Positions 11,591-37,066 of a stretch of DNA of 53,938 bases are shown here, piece by piece. How positions within the stretch are numbered: position 1 is the stretch's first letter; every line of letters starts with the position of its first letter. Under the pieces are notes generated by a model. The model was given only the letters and a program-made list of their open reading frames with translations. It did not search any database and was not told where the DNA came from. This stretch comes from Acidimicrobiaceae bacterium. Its GTDB lineage: Bacteria > Actinomycetota > Acidimicrobiia > Acidimicrobiales > Aldehydirespiratoraceae. Made by a program: the position numbers and the translations under genes. The stretch covers positions 1 through 53,938 of the forward strand of contig PBTQ01000001.1 of the NCBI GenBank assembly GCA_002729125.1. Direction: 5' to 3'.

Positions 11591-11811
11591 ATTTTCCCGT
11601 GATGACGACTGCAGTGCCTGACGAGGCGTGACGAGACGAAACGCGGTGAGCCACCGCGGCACCTTCCGGAACCAGGGCGAAGGCGAAGGAAAGCAAGCCC
11701 ATGGCGCGCTTTCCGCCCCTCGAAGGTTCCCACTGTGGGCGGTCAAGCCGAGCGACTCAGGATGCCTCGTCGCGTCCTCGGGAATGTTCACCGGGCTCTA
11801 GGCTCCTCCCT

Positions 11812-13233
11812 ATGACTCCCGAGGAGTTCCGCGCTGCGGCTCACGAGCTGATCGACTGGCTGGTCGACCGTCGGGTTGCGATCGAGGACCGTCCCGTGCG
11901 GCCCCCCGTACAGCCGGGCGACATTCGGCGAGCGCTGCCCACCCAACCGCCGCAGGGTGGAGATTCGGCGAGTGACCTGATCGCTGATCTTGAGTCGATT
12001 ATCGCCCCGGGCATCACCGAGGTGCAGCATCCGATGCACTTCGGTTGGTTCCCGTCGAACGCAAGCCTTTCCTCGATTCTGGGTGACATCGCGTCGTCAG
12101 GCCTCGCCTCGCTCGGCATCTCGTGGGAATCGTCGCCGAGCCTCACCGAGGTTGAGGAAGTCGTGGTCGATTGGCTCCGTGATCTGACCGGACTCAGCGA
12201 TGTGTGGTCTGGTGTTATCCAGGACACGGCGTCGACTTCCTGTCTCGTCGCCATGCTGGCGGCCCGTGAGCAGGCCACCGGCCACGCCCAGGCCGGGGGC
12301 GGGGTGCTTGGCTTCGGCAAACGGCTCCACGTCTACACCACTGACGAAGCCCACTCGTCGGTGCGGAAGGCTGCTCTGCTCGCCGGTTTTGCCGCCGACG
12401 ACATTCGGGTGATCGAGGTCGATCCTGTCAGTCGAGACATGCAGGCCGATGCGTTGGCCGAGACGATGGCCGCCGACGTTGCTGCCGGTGGGGTGCCGGC
12501 GATCGTGGTCGCGTCGCTCGGCACGACCGGCGTAACGGCGTTCGATCCGTTACCGGAGATCATCGAGACCGCTCGCCGCCACGGCGCATGGGTCCACGCC
12601 GATGCCGCGATGGCTGGCTCGGCGATGCTCCTGCGTGAGTACCGTCACCTCTTCGCAGGGGTCGATGACGCCGACTCGATCTCGTGGAATCCTCACAAGT
12701 GGATGGGCACGATCCTCGACACATCGCTGCTGTACCTGCGAGATCCCGAGCACCTGATCCGGGTGATGTCGACTAACCCGAGTTACCTGCAGTCGACCGC
12801 CGGCGGGGAGGCCACCCAGTACCGCGACTGGGGCATCCCGCTTGGGCGCCGCTTCCGAGCGCTCAAGCTCTGGTACCAACTCCGACTCGATGGCCCGGAG
12901 GCGATTCGTCAGCGACTCCGTCGCGACCTCGACAACGCTCAATGGTTCTCTGAACGCATCGCCGAGAAGCCGGGCTGGGAGGTCGTAGCACCGGTGCGGC
13001 TCCAGACCGTGTGCGTGCGCCACACACCCACTGAGCTCAACGGTGATGCAGCAGCGATCAGCGATCACAACCAGCGTTGGGTCCGTGAGGTCAACGTGTC
13101 GGGCGCCGCCTTTCTGTCCCCGTCGCTGCTTGACGGCGGATGGATGGCGAGGGTGTCAATCGGTGTGGAGTCGACCGAACGACGACATCTTGAGCGGTTG
13201 CTCGACCTGATGGACGAACACACCCGCATGTGA
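11812..13233 (+). CDS. PLP-dependent group II amino-acid decarboxylase (aromatic-L-amino-acid type)
   Basis: 473 residues, the family's usual length. These enzymes use pyridoxal phosphate to decarboxylate aromatic amino acids such as Tyr, Trp or DOPA to amines. Seen motifs: the N-terminal 'HPMHFGWFPSNASLSSILGDI', 'TTDEAHSSVRKAALLAG' (cofactor-stacking His), 'LGTTGVTAFDPL', 'WVHADAAMAGSA' (Asp holding the pyridine N) and 'SWNPHKWMGT' with the PLP-binding Lys. The ATG at 11812 lies 7 nt after TAGGCT (11799-11804), a leaderless start; earlier in-frame codons encode unconserved sequence. Substrate choice among aromatic amino acids is not resolved. It is the first gene to the right of the protease and stands alone. 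Confidence 0.9.
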   Translation: MTPEEFRAAAHELIDWLVDRRVAIEDRPVRPPVQPGDIRRALPTQPPQGGDSASDLIADLESIIAPGITEVQHPMHFGWFPSNASLSSILGDIASSGLASLGISWESSPSLTEVEEVVVDWLRDLTGLSDVWSGVIQDTASTSCLVAMLAAREQATGHAQAGGGVLGFGKRLHVYTTDEAHSSVRKAALLAGFAADDIRVIEVDPVSRDMQADALAETMAADVAAGGVPAIVVASLGTTGVTAFDPLPEIIETARRHGAWVHADAAMAGSAMLLREYRHLFAGVDDADSISWNPHKWMGTILDTSLLYLRDPEHLIRVMSTNPSYLQSTAGGEATQYRDWGIPLGRRFRALKLWYQLRLDGPEAIRQRLRRDLDNAQWFSERIAEKPGWEVVAPVRLQTVCVRHTPTELNGDAAAISDHNQRWVREVNVSGAAFLSPSLLDGGWMARVSIGVESTERRHLERLLDLMDEHTRM

Positions 13234-29496: not shown

Positions 29497-30696
29497 TCAG
29501 CCGCCACTGACGAGCTGTTCGGCGCCCTTCGGCATCGCGACCTCGTCGTCTCGGTCGTCGAGCCAGCCTTCGGGAAGGTGAACGTCCTTGGGTGAGCCGG
29601 AGTGACCGCGCACCATCCTCATGCCGCCGATCGGGAATGGGGTCTCTCGGTCGAGTGACCCGATCAGCTCGCGCATCTCCTCGAGGGAACCGACCCGGTT
29701 GAGACGCGCCCGCATCTCGCCGCCGGCCGGGAAGCCCTTGAGGTACCAGCCGGTGTGCTTGCGGAAGTCGCGAATGCCGTGCTCTTCGCCCATCCACTCG
29801 CAGAGGAGCTCAGCGTGTTCGACCATGCCGTCGAGCACGTCGCCCAGGTTGGGGTGTGGCGGGACAGGCCGCTGGTCGAAGACGGCGGCGAGATCACCGA
29901 AGAGCCATGGTCGACCGAGGCAGCCGCGGCCGACCACCACACCGTCACAACCGGTGGTGCGCATCATGCGCAAGGCGTCATCGGCTTCCCAGATGTCGCC
30001 GTTGCCAAAAACGGGGATCGACGTGACGGCGTTCTTGAGTTCCGTGATGCGGCGCCAGTCGGCGTGTCCCGAGTAGAGCTGGTTTGCCGTACGGGCGTGG
30101 AGAGCGACGGCCCTGGCGCCTTCGGCTTCTGCGATACGGCCGGCGTCGAGGAACGTGATGGCGTCGTCGTCGATACCGACGCGGAACTTGACCGTAACCG
30201 GCACATCGCCGGCGTTCTTCACGGCCGCCTGCACGATCTTGCGGTAATGCGCACGTTTCCACGGCAGGGCCGCGCCGCCACCGTGGCGGGTGACCTTCTT
30301 CATTGGACAACCGAAGTTCATGTCGATGTGATCGACCGGGATGCCGTCGACCAGGCCGTCGGCGAGCAGCCGGGCGGCCTCTCCGATCGAGTAGGGATCG
30401 GTGCCGTACAGCTGGATCGACCGGGGCGACTCGTCGGGGGCGAAGGCGGCGAGTTCGAGACTCTTGCGATGCCCTTCGACGAGCGCGCGAGCGGTGATCA
30501 TCTGGTTGACGTAGATACCGGCGCCGTAGCGGCGGCACAGGGTGCGGAACGGGGCGTTGGTGACGCCGGCCATCGGCGCGAGAACCACTGGCGGCCACAC
30601 CTCGATGGGGCCGATGTGGGGCGCGGCGAACTCGTCCGGGCGGGCGGGCGGCTCCGGATCGGGAGCCGGCAGGGGAGCGGCGTCGACGTCGGCCAT
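29497..30696 (-). CDS. dusB: tRNA-dihydrouridine synthase
   Basis: 399 residues. An FMN enzyme that reduces uridines in tRNA D-loops. TIM-barrel start 'VVLAPMAGVTNAPFRTLCRRYGAGIYVNQMI', 'IQLYGTDPYSIGEAARLL', the catalytic Cys in DMNFGCPMKKV, 'VTVKFRVGIDD', 'VALHARTANQLYSGHADW' (catalytic-region His), 'IPVFGNGDIWEADDALRMM' and 'GCDGVVVGRGCLGRPWLFGDL' are all typical of the DusB group. The C-terminal helical domain has 'FRKHTGWYLKGFPAGGEMR'. ATG 30696 has a GGAGG site 3 nt upstream. The start region is Pro-rich and probably disordered. It is divergent from the transhydrogenase operon. Confidence 0.93.
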   Translation of the reverse strand: MADVDAAPLPAPDPEPPARPDEFAAPHIGPIEVWPPVVLAPMAGVTNAPFRTLCRRYGAGIYVNQMITARALVEGHRKSLELAAFAPDESPRSIQLYGTDPYSIGEAARLLADGLVDGIPVDHIDMNFGCPMKKVTRHGGGAALPWKRAHYRKIVQAAVKNAGDVPVTVKFRVGIDDDAITFLDAGRIAEAEGARAVALHARTANQLYSGHADWRRITELKNAVTSIPVFGNGDIWEADDALRMMRTTGCDGVVVGRGCLGRPWLFGDLAAVFDQRPVPPHPNLGDVLDGMVEHAELLCEWMGEEHGIRDFRKHTGWYLKGFPAGGEMRARLNRVGSLEEMRELIGSLDRETPFPIGGMRMVRGHSGSPKDVHLPEGWLDDRDDEVAMPKGAEQLVSGG

Positions 30697-30826
30697 GACC
30701 CTCCAGGGTAGAGAGGCGAGCTCGGCTTCGGTCGCCACCGGTCGCGAGCCGTCGGTTGTTTCGCCCAACGCTTCGATTGTCAATAATTCCCCGGCCGGAG
30801 ATTCGGCGGACCGAGTGAGGCGATCG

Positions 30827-32014
30827 ATGCACATCGGAGTACTGGCCGAAACCGGCGAACGCGAGCGGCGCGTGTCGCTCACCCCGAGTGGCGTTCGCGC
30901 TCTTTATGGCGCGGGCCACGCCGTCGCCATCGAGTCCGGCGCCGGCGTGACAGCCGGTTTCCCCGATCAGGCGTACGTCGACGTCGGCGCCGACGTCGAC
31001 GAGCGAGGTGAGGTGGTCGACGGTGCCAGTGTTGTGATCACGGTCAACGGCCCTGACGAGCGCGCGCTGCAGTCGGCGCCCTGGTCCGCCATCGGGTCGG
31101 GTCACGTCGTCGTCGGCCTGCACGATCCCCTCGGCCGGCCCGCCCGCGCCGAGGCACTCGCCGCCACCGACGCCACGGCCATCTCTCTGGAACTGGTGCC
31201 TCGCATCACCCGCGCCCAGTCGATGGACGTGCTCTCGTCGATGGCCACGGTTGCGGGGTATCAGGCCGTGCTCCTCGGCTCGACCCGGATCCAGAAGATG
31301 ATTCCGATGCTGATGACCGCGGCCGGCACGGTGCCGCCCGCCCGCTTCCTCGTGCTGGGTGCCGGAGTCGCTGGTCTGCAGGCGATCGCCAGCGCCCGTC
31401 GGCTCGGCGCGGTGGTCGAGGCGTACGACATCCGACCCGCCGCCCAGGAGCAGATCCGCTCGCTCGGGGCGAAGGCCGTCGACCTCGAGCTCGCCGACGA
31501 CGACGCCGAAGACGCCGGCGGCTATGCCACCGAACAAAGCGACGATCAAAACCGCCGCCAGCACGAGCTGCTCGCACCGCACGTCGCCGATGCCGACGTG
31601 GTGATCACGACGGCGACCGTCCCGGGTGCCGCCAGCCCGGAACTCGTCACGCCGGAGATGATCGAGTCGATGCGGCCCGGCTCGGTGATCGTCGATCTCG
31701 CCGCCGAGCTGGGCGGCAACACCCGCCTCACTCGAGCCGATGACGAGATCGAACACCGTGGCGTGTTGATCCTGGGACCGACGGACCTGACGTCTCGGGC
31801 ACCCATGACGGCGAGCCAAATGTTCTCGACCAACATGGTGTCGTTGTTGCGCCACCTCGCGCCCGACGGCGAGCTGGTTCTTGACCTCAACGACGAAATC
31901 ACCGCCGGCACCGTCTTGACCATGGGCGGCGAGGTCCGCCATCCCGCCGTGCGTTCACGCCTCGGACTTCCCGAGCTCTCCGTGACGCCCCCGAACCAGG
32001 AGGAAGAGGAATGA
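30827..32014 (+). CDS. pntA: NAD(P) transhydrogenase subunit alpha part 1 (NAD-binding)
   Basis: 395 residues. This soluble domain I binds NAD(H) in the proton-translocating transhydrogenase, which makes NADPH at the expense of the proton gradient. The opening 'IGVLAETGERERRVSLTPSGVRAL' matches alanine dehydrogenase/PntA, the dinucleotide fold is 'FLVLGAGVAGLQAIASARRLGAVVEAYDIRP', and the conserved end 'ILGPTDLTSRAPMTASQMFSTNMVSLLRHL' is present. ATG 30827 follows a GAGG site. It is first in a three-gene operon with overlapping starts (ATGA at 32011-32014). The split into three subunits is the usual arrangement in many non-enteric bacteria. Confidence 0.94.
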   Translation: MHIGVLAETGERERRVSLTPSGVRALYGAGHAVAIESGAGVTAGFPDQAYVDVGADVDERGEVVDGASVVITVNGPDERALQSAPWSAIGSGHVVVGLHDPLGRPARAEALAATDATAISLELVPRITRAQSMDVLSSMATVAGYQAVLLGSTRIQKMIPMLMTAAGTVPPARFLVLGAGVAGLQAIASARRLGAVVEAYDIRPAAQEQIRSLGAKAVDLELADDDAEDAGGYATEQSDDQNRRQHELLAPHVADADVVITTATVPGAASPELVTPEMIESMRPGSVIVDLAAELGGNTRLTRADDEIEHRGVLILGPTDLTSRAPMTASQMFSTNMVSLLRHLAPDGELVLDLNDEITAGTVLTMGGEVRHPAVRSRLGLPELSVTPPNQEEEE

Positions 32015-32289
32015 CCTTCGTAGTCGCATTGACGCTCTTCGTGTTGGCCGTGTTTCTCGGAGTCGAACTGATCTCCAAGGTCCCGCCGACCCTGCATACG
32101 CCCCTCATGTCCGGCTCGAACGCCATCAGCGGGATCACGCTGATCGGAGCGCTTGCCTCTGCCGGCACGGAGCACTCAAGCCTAACCACCGTCCTCGCCG
32201 CCGGCGCCGTGGCGCTCGCGACGATCAACGTCGTCGGCGGCTTCCTGGTCACGCACCGGATGCTCGGCATGTTCGCGAAGAAGCGCTGA
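32011..32289 (+). CDS. NAD(P) transhydrogenase subunit alpha part 2 (membrane)
   Basis: 92 residues with three hydrophobic segments (about 3-20, 38-58, 62-82). This is the PntA2/PntAB membrane subunit of split transhydrogenases: 'TFVVALTLFVLAVFLGVELISKVPPTLHTPLMSGSNAISGITLIGAL' is the family core, with the Pro-Thr-Leu-His-Thr-Pro-Leu-Met-Ser-Gly-x-Asn-Ala signature. Together with PntB it makes the proton channel. It overlaps pntA by 4 bp and abuts pntB with TGATG. Confidence 0.95.
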   Translation: MTFVVALTLFVLAVFLGVELISKVPPTLHTPLMSGSNAISGITLIGALASAGTEHSSLTTVLAAGAVALATINVVGGFLVTHRMLGMFAKKR

Positions 32290-33671
32290 TGTCCGACGAA
32301 CTCATCCAGTTCGGCTACCTCGTCGCCGCAGTCCTCTTCATCCTCGGGATCCGCGGCCTCGCTCGGCCTCGAACGGCCGTGCGCGGCAATAAGCTCGGCT
32401 CGCTGGGCATGCTCGTCGCCGTCGTCGTGACGCTCACCGACAACGACATCATCGGGTACGGCGCCATCGTCGGCGGCCTGGTCGTAGGCACCGCCATCGG
32501 TGTGCTGCTCGCCACCCGCGTCCAGATGACCGGTATGCCCCAGCTCGTCGCGCTCTTCAACGGCTTCGGTGGTGCTGCGTCGCTGCTCGTCGCCGCCGCC
32601 GGGTTCATCGAGGTGCTCGACGTCGTCGAACCCGATCTCGAGACGTCGGTCGCCACCGCTGCGGCGCTCGCGATCGGTGGCGTCACGCTCACCGGCAGCA
32701 TCGTGGCGTTCGGCAAACTGCAGGAGCTCGTTGGAGGCGGCGCGGTGGCGTCCGCGCCGCTGCGGGTGCTCAACATCGCCGTCGCGGTCGCCACGATCGT
32801 GTTCGGCGTGGGGCTCGCCGCCGATCCCGCCCGCTGGTGGATGTGGGCACTGGTCGCTGTCAGCCTCGTCCTCGGCGTCACGCTGGTGGCGCCGATCGGT
32901 GGCGCCGACATGCCGGTCGTCATCGCACTGCTCAACTCCCTGTCGGGCCTCGCCGCCGCAGCAGCTGGGTTCATCCTCGACAACAGCCTGCTGATCATCG
33001 CCGGGTCGCTCGTGGGTGCGAGCGGCCTGATCCTCACGGGCATCATGTGCCGGGCGATGAACCGAACACTGGTCAACGTGCTGTTCGGCTCCATCGAGTC
33101 GAGTGGCGTCACCGCCGACGCCGACGAGGTCTACGCAGGGCGCGTGACGTCGTCGTCGGCCGATGACGTTGCGTTGCTGCTCGAGACGGCGAACCGTGTC
33201 GCGATGGTTCCCGGCTACGGGATGGCGGTCGCCCAGGCCCAGCACGCGGTCCGCGATCTCACCCGGGCGCTGCAGGAACGCGATGTCGAGGTGGTGTTCG
33301 GCATCCACCCGGTCGCCGGTCGCATGCCGGGCCACATGAACGTCTTGTTAGCCGAGGCCGAGATCCCGTACGAGCAGTTGCTCGAGATGGACACGATCAA
33401 CCCGACCTTCGACCGCACCGACGTCGTGATCGTCATCGGCGCCAACGACGTGGTCAATCCCGAGGCGCGAGAGAACCCCGACAGCCCCATCGCCGGTATG
33501 CCGATTCTCGACGTCGACAAAGCTCGGACCGTCGTGGTGGTGAAGCGGTCGTTGAGCCCTGGGTTCGCCGGCATCCCAAATCCGTTGTTCGCCGGGGACA
33601 ATACGCTCATGCTGTTCGGCGATGGTCGGGCCGCCGTCGAGGACATGACCAAGGCGCTCGCCGAGCTCTGA
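32289..33671 (+). CDS. pntB: NAD(P) transhydrogenase subunit beta
   Basis: 460 residues, full length. The N-terminal ~270 residues are membrane-spanning with eight to nine helices, including 'GMPQLVALFNGFGGAASLLVA' and 'DMPVVIALLNSLSGLAAAAAGFIL', typical of the channel domain II. The C-terminal soluble domain III binds NADP(H): 'VPGYGMAVAQAQHAV', 'FGIHPVAGRMPGHMNVLLAEAEIPYEQL', 'VVIVIGANDVVNPEA' and 'VVVVKRSLSPGFAGIPNPLFAGDNTLMLFGDG'. Its start overlaps the preceding stop (TGATG). Its end lies 9 bp from the convergent Maf-decarboxylase gene. Confidence 0.95.
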   Translation: MSDELIQFGYLVAAVLFILGIRGLARPRTAVRGNKLGSLGMLVAVVVTLTDNDIIGYGAIVGGLVVGTAIGVLLATRVQMTGMPQLVALFNGFGGAASLLVAAAGFIEVLDVVEPDLETSVATAAALAIGGVTLTGSIVAFGKLQELVGGGAVASAPLRVLNIAVAVATIVFGVGLAADPARWWMWALVAVSLVLGVTLVAPIGGADMPVVIALLNSLSGLAAAAAGFILDNSLLIIAGSLVGASGLILTGIMCRAMNRTLVNVLFGSIESSGVTADADEVYAGRVTSSSADDVALLLETANRVAMVPGYGMAVAQAQHAVRDLTRALQERDVEVVFGIHPVAGRMPGHMNVLLAEAEIPYEQLLEMDTINPTFDRTDVVIVIGANDVVNPEARENPDSPIAGMPILDVDKARTVVVVKRSLSPGFAGIPNPLFAGDNTLMLFGDGRAAVEDMTKALAEL

Positions 33672-33680
33672 ACGAGTCGA

Positions 33681-35741
33681 TCAGCCCCGCGCGGCCCAGG
33701 CCGCCTCGCTGTGGCGGGTGATGAGATCGAGCAGCACGTCGACGTCGTCGAGCGTGACCGCCGGGTTCATGAAGATCAGACGGAAGCAGTTGATGCCGTT
33801 GACTGGCTGGTAGCCGATCAATGCCGAACCCTCCACCTGCATCGCCGCCTTGGCCGCTGGGGCGACTGCGTGAAGTGCCGCGTGTTGTCCGTCGTCGAGA
33901 GACGCAAGATCGAACGGGCGGAGTTCGGGCGGGACCCAGGTCAGGCAGACGTTGGTGAAGTCTCCGGCGACGATGAACGCCACGTCGTCGCGTTCGGCCA
34001 CGCGGCGTCGCGCGTGGTCGGCGAGCGCCACGGCATGGTCGACCCGCGCCGCCATGCCGTTGTCGCCGCGTGACTTCCATGTGAGCCAAGCCTTTAGCGC
34101 GTCGACCCGACGACCGCACTGCAGGCTCCGGTCGCCTGCGTCGAGGTCGGCGTTCGCCTTCTCGGGCTGAAAGAGATAGTCGGCGCCGATGGCAAAGGTG
34201 GTGAGCAGTCGCTCGGGCTCGCGCACGAGCAGGGCGGTGCACTGTTGGGTGAGCCCGGCCATCTTGTGGAGGTTCCACACCACCGAGTCAGCGCGCTCGA
34301 TACCGGACAGCCGTTGGCGCTCCGTGGGAGAGAGAAGCGCAGCGCCACCGTAGGCCGCGTCGACGTGAAGCCAGATACCGTGCTCCTCGCAGCGGTCGGC
34401 GATCGCGTCGATGGGATCGAACGCAGCGGTCACGGTGGTGCCCGCCGTGGCGATCACGGCGAGTACTTCGGGCCCTTCGGTGAGACTCTCGTCGAGTGCG
34501 TCGACATCCATGTCCCCTGCGGCGTCGGTCGGCACCGACACCACCGAGGTTCGACCGAGTCCCATGACTGCGGCGATCTTCTCGGTGGCGTAGTGCCCCG
34601 AATCGCTGACCAGGATCCGAAGTCGTCGCCCGTCGGAACCCGCCGTGACAAGATCGAACTGGAGCCGATGACGGGCGAGTTGCAGCGCATGGAGTTGCGC
34701 AAGTGACGCCCCCGCGCACATGAGCCCGGCGGGATGGTCGCCGGTTTCGGGAAAGCCGACCAGTCGCGCCATCTTCGCAAGAAGCGCACGCTCGATCATC
34801 GTGAAGACCGGCGCGACCTCGAACGTGGCGTTGGTCGTGTTGAGCGCAGCCCCGAGCCAGTCGCCAACAACGCCGAGCGGATCGGCACCCGAGTAGTTCT
34901 GATTGAGGAAGTAGGGGTGGTTGGTATGAACGGACCGTCGCACCACCAAGTCGGCCGCCTCGACGAGGTCGCCCGGCTCGGCGGGCGGCGCGTTATCGGT
35001 GATCTCGAGACCGATCGTGCGGGCGAAGTCGGCGGCCAAGTCGGCGGGGCCGGCCCATCGGACGACGGGCTCGTCGCGGCTGGGAGGGCGGGTGACGTGG
35101 TGGAGGGCCCGGGCGGCGATCGCCTCGACAGGGTCGATCGGCGCCGGCGATCGAAAGTCGAGGAGGTCGAGACCGTGAGCGGCGAAGAGCTTGTCGACGA
35201 GGGCGAGCGAAAGACCGATGACTCCGTTCGCGCTTCCCTCGATGCGGTCGGCAAAGAGGCCCGCGGCTCCCTGGAGTCCGTAGGCCCCTGCCTTGTCGTC
35301 GGCGTCGCCAGAGTCGACGTACCACGCGAGCCGCTCCTCGGTGATCTCGTCGACCACCACCTCCGTCACATCCCGGCCGCTGTGCACGAAGGCATCGCCA
35401 CCTGCGCCAACAACGGCGACGGCGATGCCGGTGAGTACCTGATGGGGTCGGGCGGCGAGCGAACGCAGCATCGCACGGGCCTCGTTGCGATCCTCCGGCT
35501 TGCCGAGGATCTTCCCGTCGAGCGCGACGGTCGTGTCGGCAGCGAGCACGACGCGGCCGGCATCGAGCGCGGCCATGGCTTTTGCTCGCGCCAATCGTTC
35601 GACATAGTCGCCCGCCGACTCGCCGGCCAGGGGCGTCTCGTCGACGGCAGCAGGCTCGATGCGCGGGTGCACCCCGACTCTGCTCAAGAGCTCTCGTCGA
35701 CGGGGAGAGCCTGACGCCAAGATCAGTTCGAGGTCGATCAC
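33681..35741 (-). CDS. Fusion of Maf-type nucleotide pyrophosphatase with PLP-dependent glutamate/cysteine-sulfinate-type decarboxylase
   Basis: 686 residues in one uninterrupted frame from GTG 35741. Residues ~1-190 are a complete Maf domain: 'LILASGSPRRRELLSRVGV', 'AADTTVALDGKILGKPED' and 'DADDKAGAYGLQGAAGLFADRIEGS'. Maf proteins hydrolyse non-canonical or modified nucleoside triphosphates. After a short linker, residues ~210-686 are a full group II decarboxylase: 'VHTNHPYFLNQNYSG', 'NATFEVAPVFTMIERALL', 'TAGTTVTAAFDPIDAI', 'WLHVDAAYGGAALLSP' and the PLP Lys in VWNLHKMAG. The fold resembles GAD/CSAD enzymes; substrate unknown. Each part is normally a separate protein. A -10-like CAGAAT lies 6 nt before the GTG. 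Both active sites look intact. Confidence 0.9.
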   Translation of the reverse strand: MIDLELILASGSPRRRELLSRVGVHPRIEPAAVDETPLAGESAGDYVERLARAKAMAALDAGRVVLAADTTVALDGKILGKPEDRNEARAMLRSLAARPHQVLTGIAVAVVGAGGDAFVHSGRDVTEVVVDEITEERLAWYVDSGDADDKAGAYGLQGAAGLFADRIEGSANGVIGLSLALVDKLFAAHGLDLLDFRSPAPIDPVEAIAARALHHVTRPPSRDEPVVRWAGPADLAADFARTIGLEITDNAPPAEPGDLVEAADLVVRRSVHTNHPYFLNQNYSGADPLGVVGDWLGAALNTTNATFEVAPVFTMIERALLAKMARLVGFPETGDHPAGLMCAGASLAQLHALQLARHRLQFDLVTAGSDGRRLRILVSDSGHYATEKIAAVMGLGRTSVVSVPTDAAGDMDVDALDESLTEGPEVLAVIATAGTTVTAAFDPIDAIADRCEEHGIWLHVDAAYGGAALLSPTERQRLSGIERADSVVWNLHKMAGLTQQCTALLVREPERLLTTFAIGADYLFQPEKANADLDAGDRSLQCGRRVDALKAWLTWKSRGDNGMAARVDHAVALADHARRRVAERDDVAFIVAGDFTNVCLTWVPPELRPFDLASLDDGQHAALHAVAPAAKAAMQVEGSALIGYQPVNGINCFRLIFMNPAVTLDDVDVLLDLITRHSEAAWAARG

Positions 35742-35809
35742 CCGGGAATTCTGGCACGCCCCTCGGAACGCGCCACCAGCGTTCCTGCTGGGGCGCCTAG
35801 CCTCTGGGG

Positions 35810-37066
35810 ATCGACACGCCGGAGACATCCCCTTCTGACCCGAACGTCCCCACGTCGGACGATGAGGTCCGTGCACTGCCTGAGGAGCTACCGCCGCCAA
35901 CGGCGGAGGAGATCCGGCCGGACAGCTTCATCATCACCACCGGGTTTTTTCGGGCCGGCACGGACCCCATCCGGCTCCCACGAGCCGTTGATGGGCCTAC
36001 ATACACGCCCGAAGAGGCCGAGGTGGCGGCCCGTCAGTTCTTCGAGGCGTTGGCCTCCGGACGCGAACTCGAACACGTCCAACCCGACGCGGTCGAGTTC
36101 GCTCGTGCCAACGGTTTGCTGGTCCTCTTCAACGAGGGCGTCAGGGCGGTCTTTGAAACCCACCTCGAGCGCATGCCGACCGACATTGAGGCACGGTGGC
36201 GTGACCTGATCGCCGGTGGAGCCCGATCCGAGGCGTTCGGCCCACTCACGTTGCAGGAGCGTCTCGACGAGCGTCAGGTCGAGACGGCGCTGGTGGCCGG
36301 CCGACGTCAGCGGGTTGCGAATCTGTGCGTCACGTTGGTTCTGATCGTCGGCGTCGCCGTCGGTGCTTCATGGGGATGGCAGGAGTTCGGGCCCGGTGAG
36401 GCCCGTACCCGCGGTGCGCTGCAGTTCGCCGACACGGACGAGTCCGCCGACGTCGCAGCGGTCGAGGGTGGGCCACCCGTTGCTGAGCCTGCCCTCAGCA
36501 CGGCGCTCAGCGATCCGATTTCGGTGCTCGCTGGCGACGGCCCTGTCGCCGATCGGGTCACGTCGGCGCCATTCGTGCGGTTCCCGTACCCACCGGGTTC
36601 GATTGGAGCCTCGATCTTCCAGTATGCGAACTCGGGGCATGTTGTCCTCGTCGGCCCCGCCGGGTTCACCGACGACGCGTGCCTGCGGGTCAGTGTTGTC
36701 AGCGAGGAACTTCGTCCGCTCGACACCGTGACTCACGGACCGTGCGTCGAGACGATCGGCCGCGATGCCACGGTCGGCTGCATTGGTGACACGGCGATCC
36801 TCTTGGCGCTCTACATCCCGACCGGTGAAGTGGCGTTGCCGGAGGGCGGCACTGGTTTCGCTGATGCGATACGCCTTCAGCTCGTCGCCGATGGCGCCCC
36901 CGACTACGAGGTTCTCACCGTGCGGGGCACGATCGAGGTCGATCCCGATAGCGACACCGTGATCCCTCGCTTCGGGGGCCAGATCGGGGACACGATCATG
37001 TTCGACACCGGCGCCGGTCGGTCGGGCATGTGCACGCTCACCGGCGACTTTCCTAGCCGCCCCTGA
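35810..37066 (+). CDS. Single-pass membrane protein of unknown function (start uncertain)
   Basis: Not recognised. A safe minimal start is GTG 36023 (347 residues), but the frame is open back to 35801 with codon use like the gene, and reads as an acidic Pro-rich N-terminus leading smoothly into 'TYTPEEAEVAARQFFEALASGREL'. No ATG, GTG or TTG occurs there. A TAGCCT -10 (35798-35803) would put the mRNA start 6 nt later at ATC 35810, a possible rare start. A cytosolic helical part (to about residue 160) is followed by one transmembrane helix (VANLCVTLVLIVGVAVGASWGW) and an external domain with several Cys (DDACLRVSV, HGPCVET, TVGCIGD, GMCTLTG) that may form disulfides. Topology suggests a sensor or anti-sigma-like layout, but no such motif is seen. 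Confidence 0.6.
   Translation: MDTPETSPSDPNVPTSDDEVRALPEELPPPTAEEIRPDSFIITTGFFRAGTDPIRLPRAVDGPTYTPEEAEVAARQFFEALASGRELEHVQPDAVEFARANGLLVLFNEGVRAVFETHLERMPTDIEARWRDLIAGGARSEAFGPLTLQERLDERQVETALVAGRRQRVANLCVTLVLIVGVAVGASWGWQEFGPGEARTRGALQFADTDESADVAAVEGGPPVAEPALSTALSDPISVLAGDGPVADRVTSAPFVRFPYPPGSIGASIFQYANSGHVVLVGPAGFTDDACLRVSVVSEELRPLDTVTHGPCVETIGRDATVGCIGDTAILLALYIPTGEVALPEGGTGFADAIRLQLVADGAPDYEVLTVRGTIEVDPDSDTVIPRFGGQIGDTIMFDTGAGRSGMCTLTGDFPSRP

Follow-up and report, generated by a model that had tools for sequence, protein, structure and literature searches.

The window, a 53,938-nucleotide stretch of DNA from an Acidimicrobiaceae bacterium, carries on its minus strand a gene in which a Maf domain is joined to a PLP-dependent decarboxylase. 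Its single open frame (33681-35741; 686 codons plus stop) runs from a GTG at 35741 to a stop codon at 33681-33683 and encodes a product of 686 aa. The Maf domain occupies residues 5-186 (35184-35729, minus strand; PF02545, E = 3.9e-50) and spans positions 1-184 of the 187 in the Pfam profile. The decarboxylase follows as residues 204-684 (33690-35132, minus strand) and was delineated by Pfam, phmmer and Foldseek: Pyridoxal_deC (PF00282, E = 9.7e-72) matches residues 258-600 at profile positions 21-372 of 375, and in the alignment with the CSAD/GADL1/GAD group homology extends to residue 676. The open frame and the full-length Pfam domains bear out the first-pass annotation, which had described an uninterrupted frame with two complete halves, and all four motifs quoted there (SPRRRELL, ADTTVALDGK, HVDAAYGGA and NLHKM) are present. 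The junction, expected near 35,100, falls at about residues 196-203 (35133-35156, minus strand), as judged from stand-alone Maf tails and from the starts of coupled decarboxylases. It is flanked by the conserved Maf tail LDLLDF and by the decarboxylase's first helix; only about eight residues separate them, and therefore little or no sequence appears to have been lost at fusion.

On the same strand lies dus, coding for a tRNA dihydrouridine synthase (29497-30882; PF01207, E = 2e-85, and synteny), the real start of which is probably near 30633. The plus-strand genes pntA, pntA2 and pntB of an NAD(P) transhydrogenase (30815-33671; Pfam) are located between dus and the fusion gene. On the opposite side stands a divergent conserved gene (36023-37066, plus strand) that is found beside maf throughout the family; its 347-aa product has no Pfam match.

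The GTG at 35741 is the start codon of the fusion gene in all eight species that carry it. The ORF caller's extension to a TTG at 35900 was rejected, as both homology and the conservation of the upstream sequence across these species favour 35741. Upstream of the GTG is a short stretch, CGCTGGTGGCGC (35770-35781, minus strand), of which the first 11 or all 12 bases are common to the eight species, followed about 10 bases ahead of the start by a -10-like CAGAAT, CAGACT or similar. The closeness of the GTG to this conserved stretch suggests a leaderless transcript, for which the stretch is a possible promoter or operator element. A junction-proximal start codon that could serve as an internal restart for separate translation of the decarboxylase was not found in common among all eight genes; a GTG at residue 205 is present in the fusion genes of G004, G005 and G007.

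A search for the same domain order, as proposed in the first-pass annotation, recovered the full-length fusion without stops from the window's genus, in which eight of nine genomes carry it (63-92% identity), and from none of the other genomes among the 51 of the family. No further full-length Maf-decarboxylase match came from samples of the order (397 genomes) and the phylum (396 genomes), and no viral relatives were found. Public contigs matching the fusion belong to separate MAGs, most of them named Acidimicrobiaceae or Acidimicrobiales. The fusions fall into two subclades that are 63-64% identical to each other. Pairwise dN/dS ranges from 0.10 to 0.24 for the Maf half and from 0.07 to 0.21 for the decarboxylase half, and both halves are therefore maintained by purifying selection. 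The assembly that contains the window is fragmented (118 contigs), which could raise the suspicion of an error in assembly or sequencing where the two halves meet. However, the in-frame junction recurs in eight genomes and, in most genome pairs, synonymous change in the linker far exceeds nonsynonymous change, so that the chance of such an artefact is negligible. Since the fusion recurs in seven further genomes, several of them separately deposited MAGs, chance, a frameshift and misassembly can all be excluded; neither a junction error nor a general two-gene arrangement among the relatives, either of which would have spoken against a real fusion, was seen. The Maf-decarboxylase fusion is thus genuine, selectively kept and confined to one genus. 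Two other candidates drawn from long open frames, in G250 (973 aa) and G217 (717 aa), were discarded, as their upstream parts are unlike Maf and look like high-GC chance frames. The fusion combines known families, and no description of it was found in the open-access literature, the part of the record that was searched.

YhdE-type Maf proteins hydrolyse dTTP, UTP, CTP and methylated or pseudouridine triphosphates. In the Maf half the signature residues S12, R15, E35, K54, D69 and K81 are all present and conserved in the eight fusions, and the subfamily motif R14-T70-Q157 is of the YhdE type (R-T-Q, not W-Q-E), both as defined in PMC3899018. The entire domain, with the S-R-E-K-D-K and R-T-Q sets, is shared with the YhdE-type Mafs E. 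coli YhdE and B. subtilis BSU28050 (PF02545); these are stand-alone proteins, whereas the C-terminus of the fused Maf runs on into the decarboxylase. Judging by family membership, this half likely converts pyrimidine nucleoside triphosphates to monophosphate and pyrophosphate, and dTTP, UTP, m5UTP and pseudo-UTP would be its substrates. In the window's subclade the residue before VIGL is Gly, where all other family members compared have Asn; in the other fused subclade this Asn is retained and followed by Ile. The Gly could be taken to mean that the Maf half is inactive and contributes only to folding or regulation, but we consider that very unlikely, given signature and subfamily residues that are intact in eight genomes and the low dN/dS of this half.

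The decarboxylase half has its best sequence match in 2jis (phmmer, E = 2.1e-97). Its E values against CSAD, GADL1 and GAD range from 2e-97 to 7e-90, versus 9e-50 for the next group, and both sequence and fold (Foldseek ranks 1-16) place it nearer to these enzymes than to aromatic or diamine decarboxylases. In an AlphaFold model of the fusion protein (mean pLDDT 86.7, pTM 0.75) both domains are folded, and pLDDT drops below 50 only in the Maf loop 151-153 and in the region of the mobile catalytic loop (518-523 and 536-540). A monomer was modelled, and the relative placement of the two domains is not fixed by the model. The best Foldseek matches to it are CSAD, GADL1 and GAD67, with a TM score by target length of 0.88 to CSAD. 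Lys493 (NLHK; codon 34263-34265, minus strand), the predicted Schiff-base lysine for PLP, is kept in all relatives, and together with Asp461 (the PLP Asp), His383, the loop Tyr522 and the substrate residues Gln281 and Arg654 it agrees with GADL1, CSAD and GAD. The half thus has the fold and PLP lysine of CSAD, GADL1 and GAD65/67 as well as their Gln and Arg for substrate binding, and in the structural alignment is 36-39% identical to CSAD. It differs from them in being bacterial, in having a Maf domain in place of the animal N-terminal extension, and in a catalytic loop that is one residue shorter. Its scores against the PanP model TIGR03799 (147 bits; equivalog cut-off 606) and against L-2,4-diaminobutyrate decarboxylase NF052646 (188 bits; cut-off 900) are far below the thresholds.

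In this group of enzymes specificity has been attributed to a pocket residue: it is Ser in GAD, Tyr in the aspartate-decarboxylating GADL1 and Phe in CSAD, which acts on cysteine sulfinate (PMC7367687). All eight fusions have Tyr at this position (Tyr283; codon 34893-34895, minus strand), as GADL1 does, and Phe is found in 34 of 35 unfused relatives, namely in both coupled enzymes and in 32 of the 33 stand-alone ones. The stand-alone CSAD-like decarboxylases of Acidimicrobiales share the catalytic motifs and about 51-60% identity with the fused half; unlike it they are not joined to Maf and, with the exception of one from G250, carry Phe rather than Tyr. Among the stand-alone decarboxylases examined, that exception (L064:1498-2991) alone has a pocket Tyr like that of GADL1; it could help to separate the effect of fusion from that of substrate change. 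The pocket Tyr of the fusion hints at a shift toward aspartate, on a rule that may not carry over to bacteria.

Membership in the CSAD/GADL1/GAD group lends support to the first-pass proposal that an acidic amino acid is the substrate. The C-terminal half would then be a PLP-dependent alpha-decarboxylase that likely converts aspartate to beta-alanine and/or cysteine sulfinate or cysteate to hypotaurine or taurine; this prediction draws mainly on the one pocket residue and on the neighbour genes of relatives. A substitute for PanD or PanP, providing beta-alanine from aspartate for pantothenate and CoA, would be in line with Tyr283, a residue shared with the aspartate-preferring GADL1, with the absence of PanD (PF02261) from all 19 genomes checked and with the presence of PanC and PanB in G000 as well as in the four genomes closest to it. 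Furthermore, PanD occurs in none of the 33 order genomes that carry the decarboxylase (match at E <= 1e-80; sample of 397 genomes), versus 153 of the 364 others, but this exclusion is weak, because entire families share each state and it is confounded by phylogeny. The low score against the PanP model also speaks against this role. A general function in pantothenate synthesis is moreover doubtful because G004, G005 and G007, which have no PanC or strong PanB match, nevertheless keep the fusion under purifying selection, whereas six relatives that have neither the decarboxylase nor PanD (G008, G009, G016-G018 and G023) retain PanC. On balance we regard the PanD-substitute role as rather unlikely; uses of beta-alanine other than pantothenate synthesis are conceivable as well. 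With respect to the organisms themselves, the lack of PanC and of a strong PanB match at L006, L007 and L008 (G005, G004 and G007) suggests pantothenate auxotrophy. The window also encodes a second PF00282 decarboxylase (11701-13233, plus strand), which shares about 28% identity with the fused enzyme, has relatives in many family genomes and is a candidate alternative source of beta-alanine.

Alternatively, the decarboxylase half could act on cysteine sulfinate or cysteate within organosulfonate metabolism, with hypotaurine or taurine as the product. CSAD is the top match by both sequence and fold, the unfused relatives have the CSAD-type Phe, and at least 13 of the 33 stand-alone loci have, beside the decarboxylase, a histidinol-dehydrogenase-like gene for an HpsN-type dihydroxypropanesulfonate (DHPS) dehydrogenase. 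The enzyme at L067 is far closer to sulfopropanediol 3-dehydrogenase (E = 1e-136) than to histidinol dehydrogenase (4e-66). The DHPS-specific GR[YF]AH motif, in which PMC11382572 treats the final His as diagnostic, is found in 12 of these 13 enzymes, the thirteenth being cut off by the end of the locus. Such neighbours indicate C3 sulfonates as substrates of the unfused decarboxylase. On the other hand, the fused proteins have Tyr instead of Phe, no HpsN-type gene was found in G000, and CDO_I-family cysteine dioxygenase is absent from all 19 genomes, for which reason a route through cysteine dioxygenase was rejected. Taurine formation by the fusion is therefore to be seen as a tentative possibility.

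In G014 and G021 the HpsN-type enzyme is itself fused to a DegT-type aminotransferase, and the two are encoded in one frame at L026 (8471-11017, plus strand), L088 and L089. At L026 and L088 this gene adjoins the CSAD-like decarboxylase and a dimethylglycine-dehydrogenase-like FAD/GcvT gene. This neighbourhood may represent a sulfonate (cysteate/taurine) gene cluster of Acidimicrobiales, possibly one new to the literature.

Comparison of gene order throws light on how the fusion arose. In most of the family maf is located directly upstream of dus with the same flanking genes (e.g., G008, G009, G014-G018, G021 and G023), and dus follows directly after maf or maf-decarboxylase in the relatives. 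The order maf-decarboxylase-dus was split in the window genome, since dus directly follows the fusion in the seven other fused genomes, where no pntA-pntA2-pntB intervenes. In G022 and G058 a separate sister decarboxylase gene stands directly after maf, and in G022 dus comes next; the maf stop and the decarboxylase start overlap by 4 bases (GTGA in G022 and ATGA in G058). A comparison of the domain phylogenies, likewise suggested at first pass, gave a divided answer: the decarboxylases of fused and coupled genes form one group (SH-aLRT 99), within which the fused ones are a single clade (100/100), but neither the Mafs (AU p = 5.5e-7) nor the flanking genes (AU p = 9e-5) of these genomes form one clade. 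In view of this conflict, the shared insertion is either ancestral with several subsequent losses or the result of lateral transfer into the same site. Adjacency of maf and decarboxylase was likely the precursor of the fusion: the decarboxylase gene would have come between maf and dus, been translated by a stop/start overlap as in G022 and G058, and then been joined in frame with maf in the ancestor of the window's genus.

Maf proteins and PF00282 decarboxylases both form homodimers. We consider the protein most probably a two-headed enzyme, the product of an end-to-end fusion of adjacent genes, with two independent activities. The main consequence of the fusion would probably be equal expression and joint assembly of the halves, and their active sites would exchange no intermediate. 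A true functional link, in which one half acts as metabolite sensor or supplier for the other (e.g., pyrimidine pools acting on beta-alanine or taurine output), could account for the persistence of the fusion in two diverged subclades and for the adjacency of the two genes in two genera. A parallel exists in human ASMTL, in which an N-terminal YhdE-type Maf is likewise covalently joined to a seemingly unrelated enzyme, a methyltransferase, and which has been interpreted as evidence of a functional relationship (PMC3899018); its C-terminal partner and its lineage differ, and it represents an independent event. However, in the order the decarboxylase gene is mostly not linked to maf, and in the family maf mostly stands beside dus without a decarboxylase. 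This pattern points to co-expression or accident and not to a common substrate, and no shared metabolite is apparent. The Rosetta-stone argument calls for partners linked in many independent lineages; here adjacency or fusion is confined to two genera of one family, g1 and g8, and the order and phylum samples contain no other full-length fusion. A functional link thus appears improbable. More improbable still is its specific form, in which pyrimidine triphosphate, acting through Maf, would govern how much beta-alanine or taurine is made, or control would run the opposite way, with the change from Phe to Tyr marking a substrate switch on entry into this role.

The fusion by itself reveals no new pathway. 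The new pathway, metabolite repair and stationary-phase co-regulation envisaged in the first-pass annotation found no support, and the protein most likely originated from adjacent overlapping genes between maf and dus. The protein is a bacterial counterpart to the Maf fusion known from eukaryotes, ASMTL, and its relatives display the likely steps of its formation, from unlinked genes through adjacent ones with overlapping stop and start to the fused state. The difference in the pocket residue, which runs parallel to the fusion, offers a testable case for substrate change in a decarboxylase, and the fusion is good material for studying gene fusion together with substrate change.
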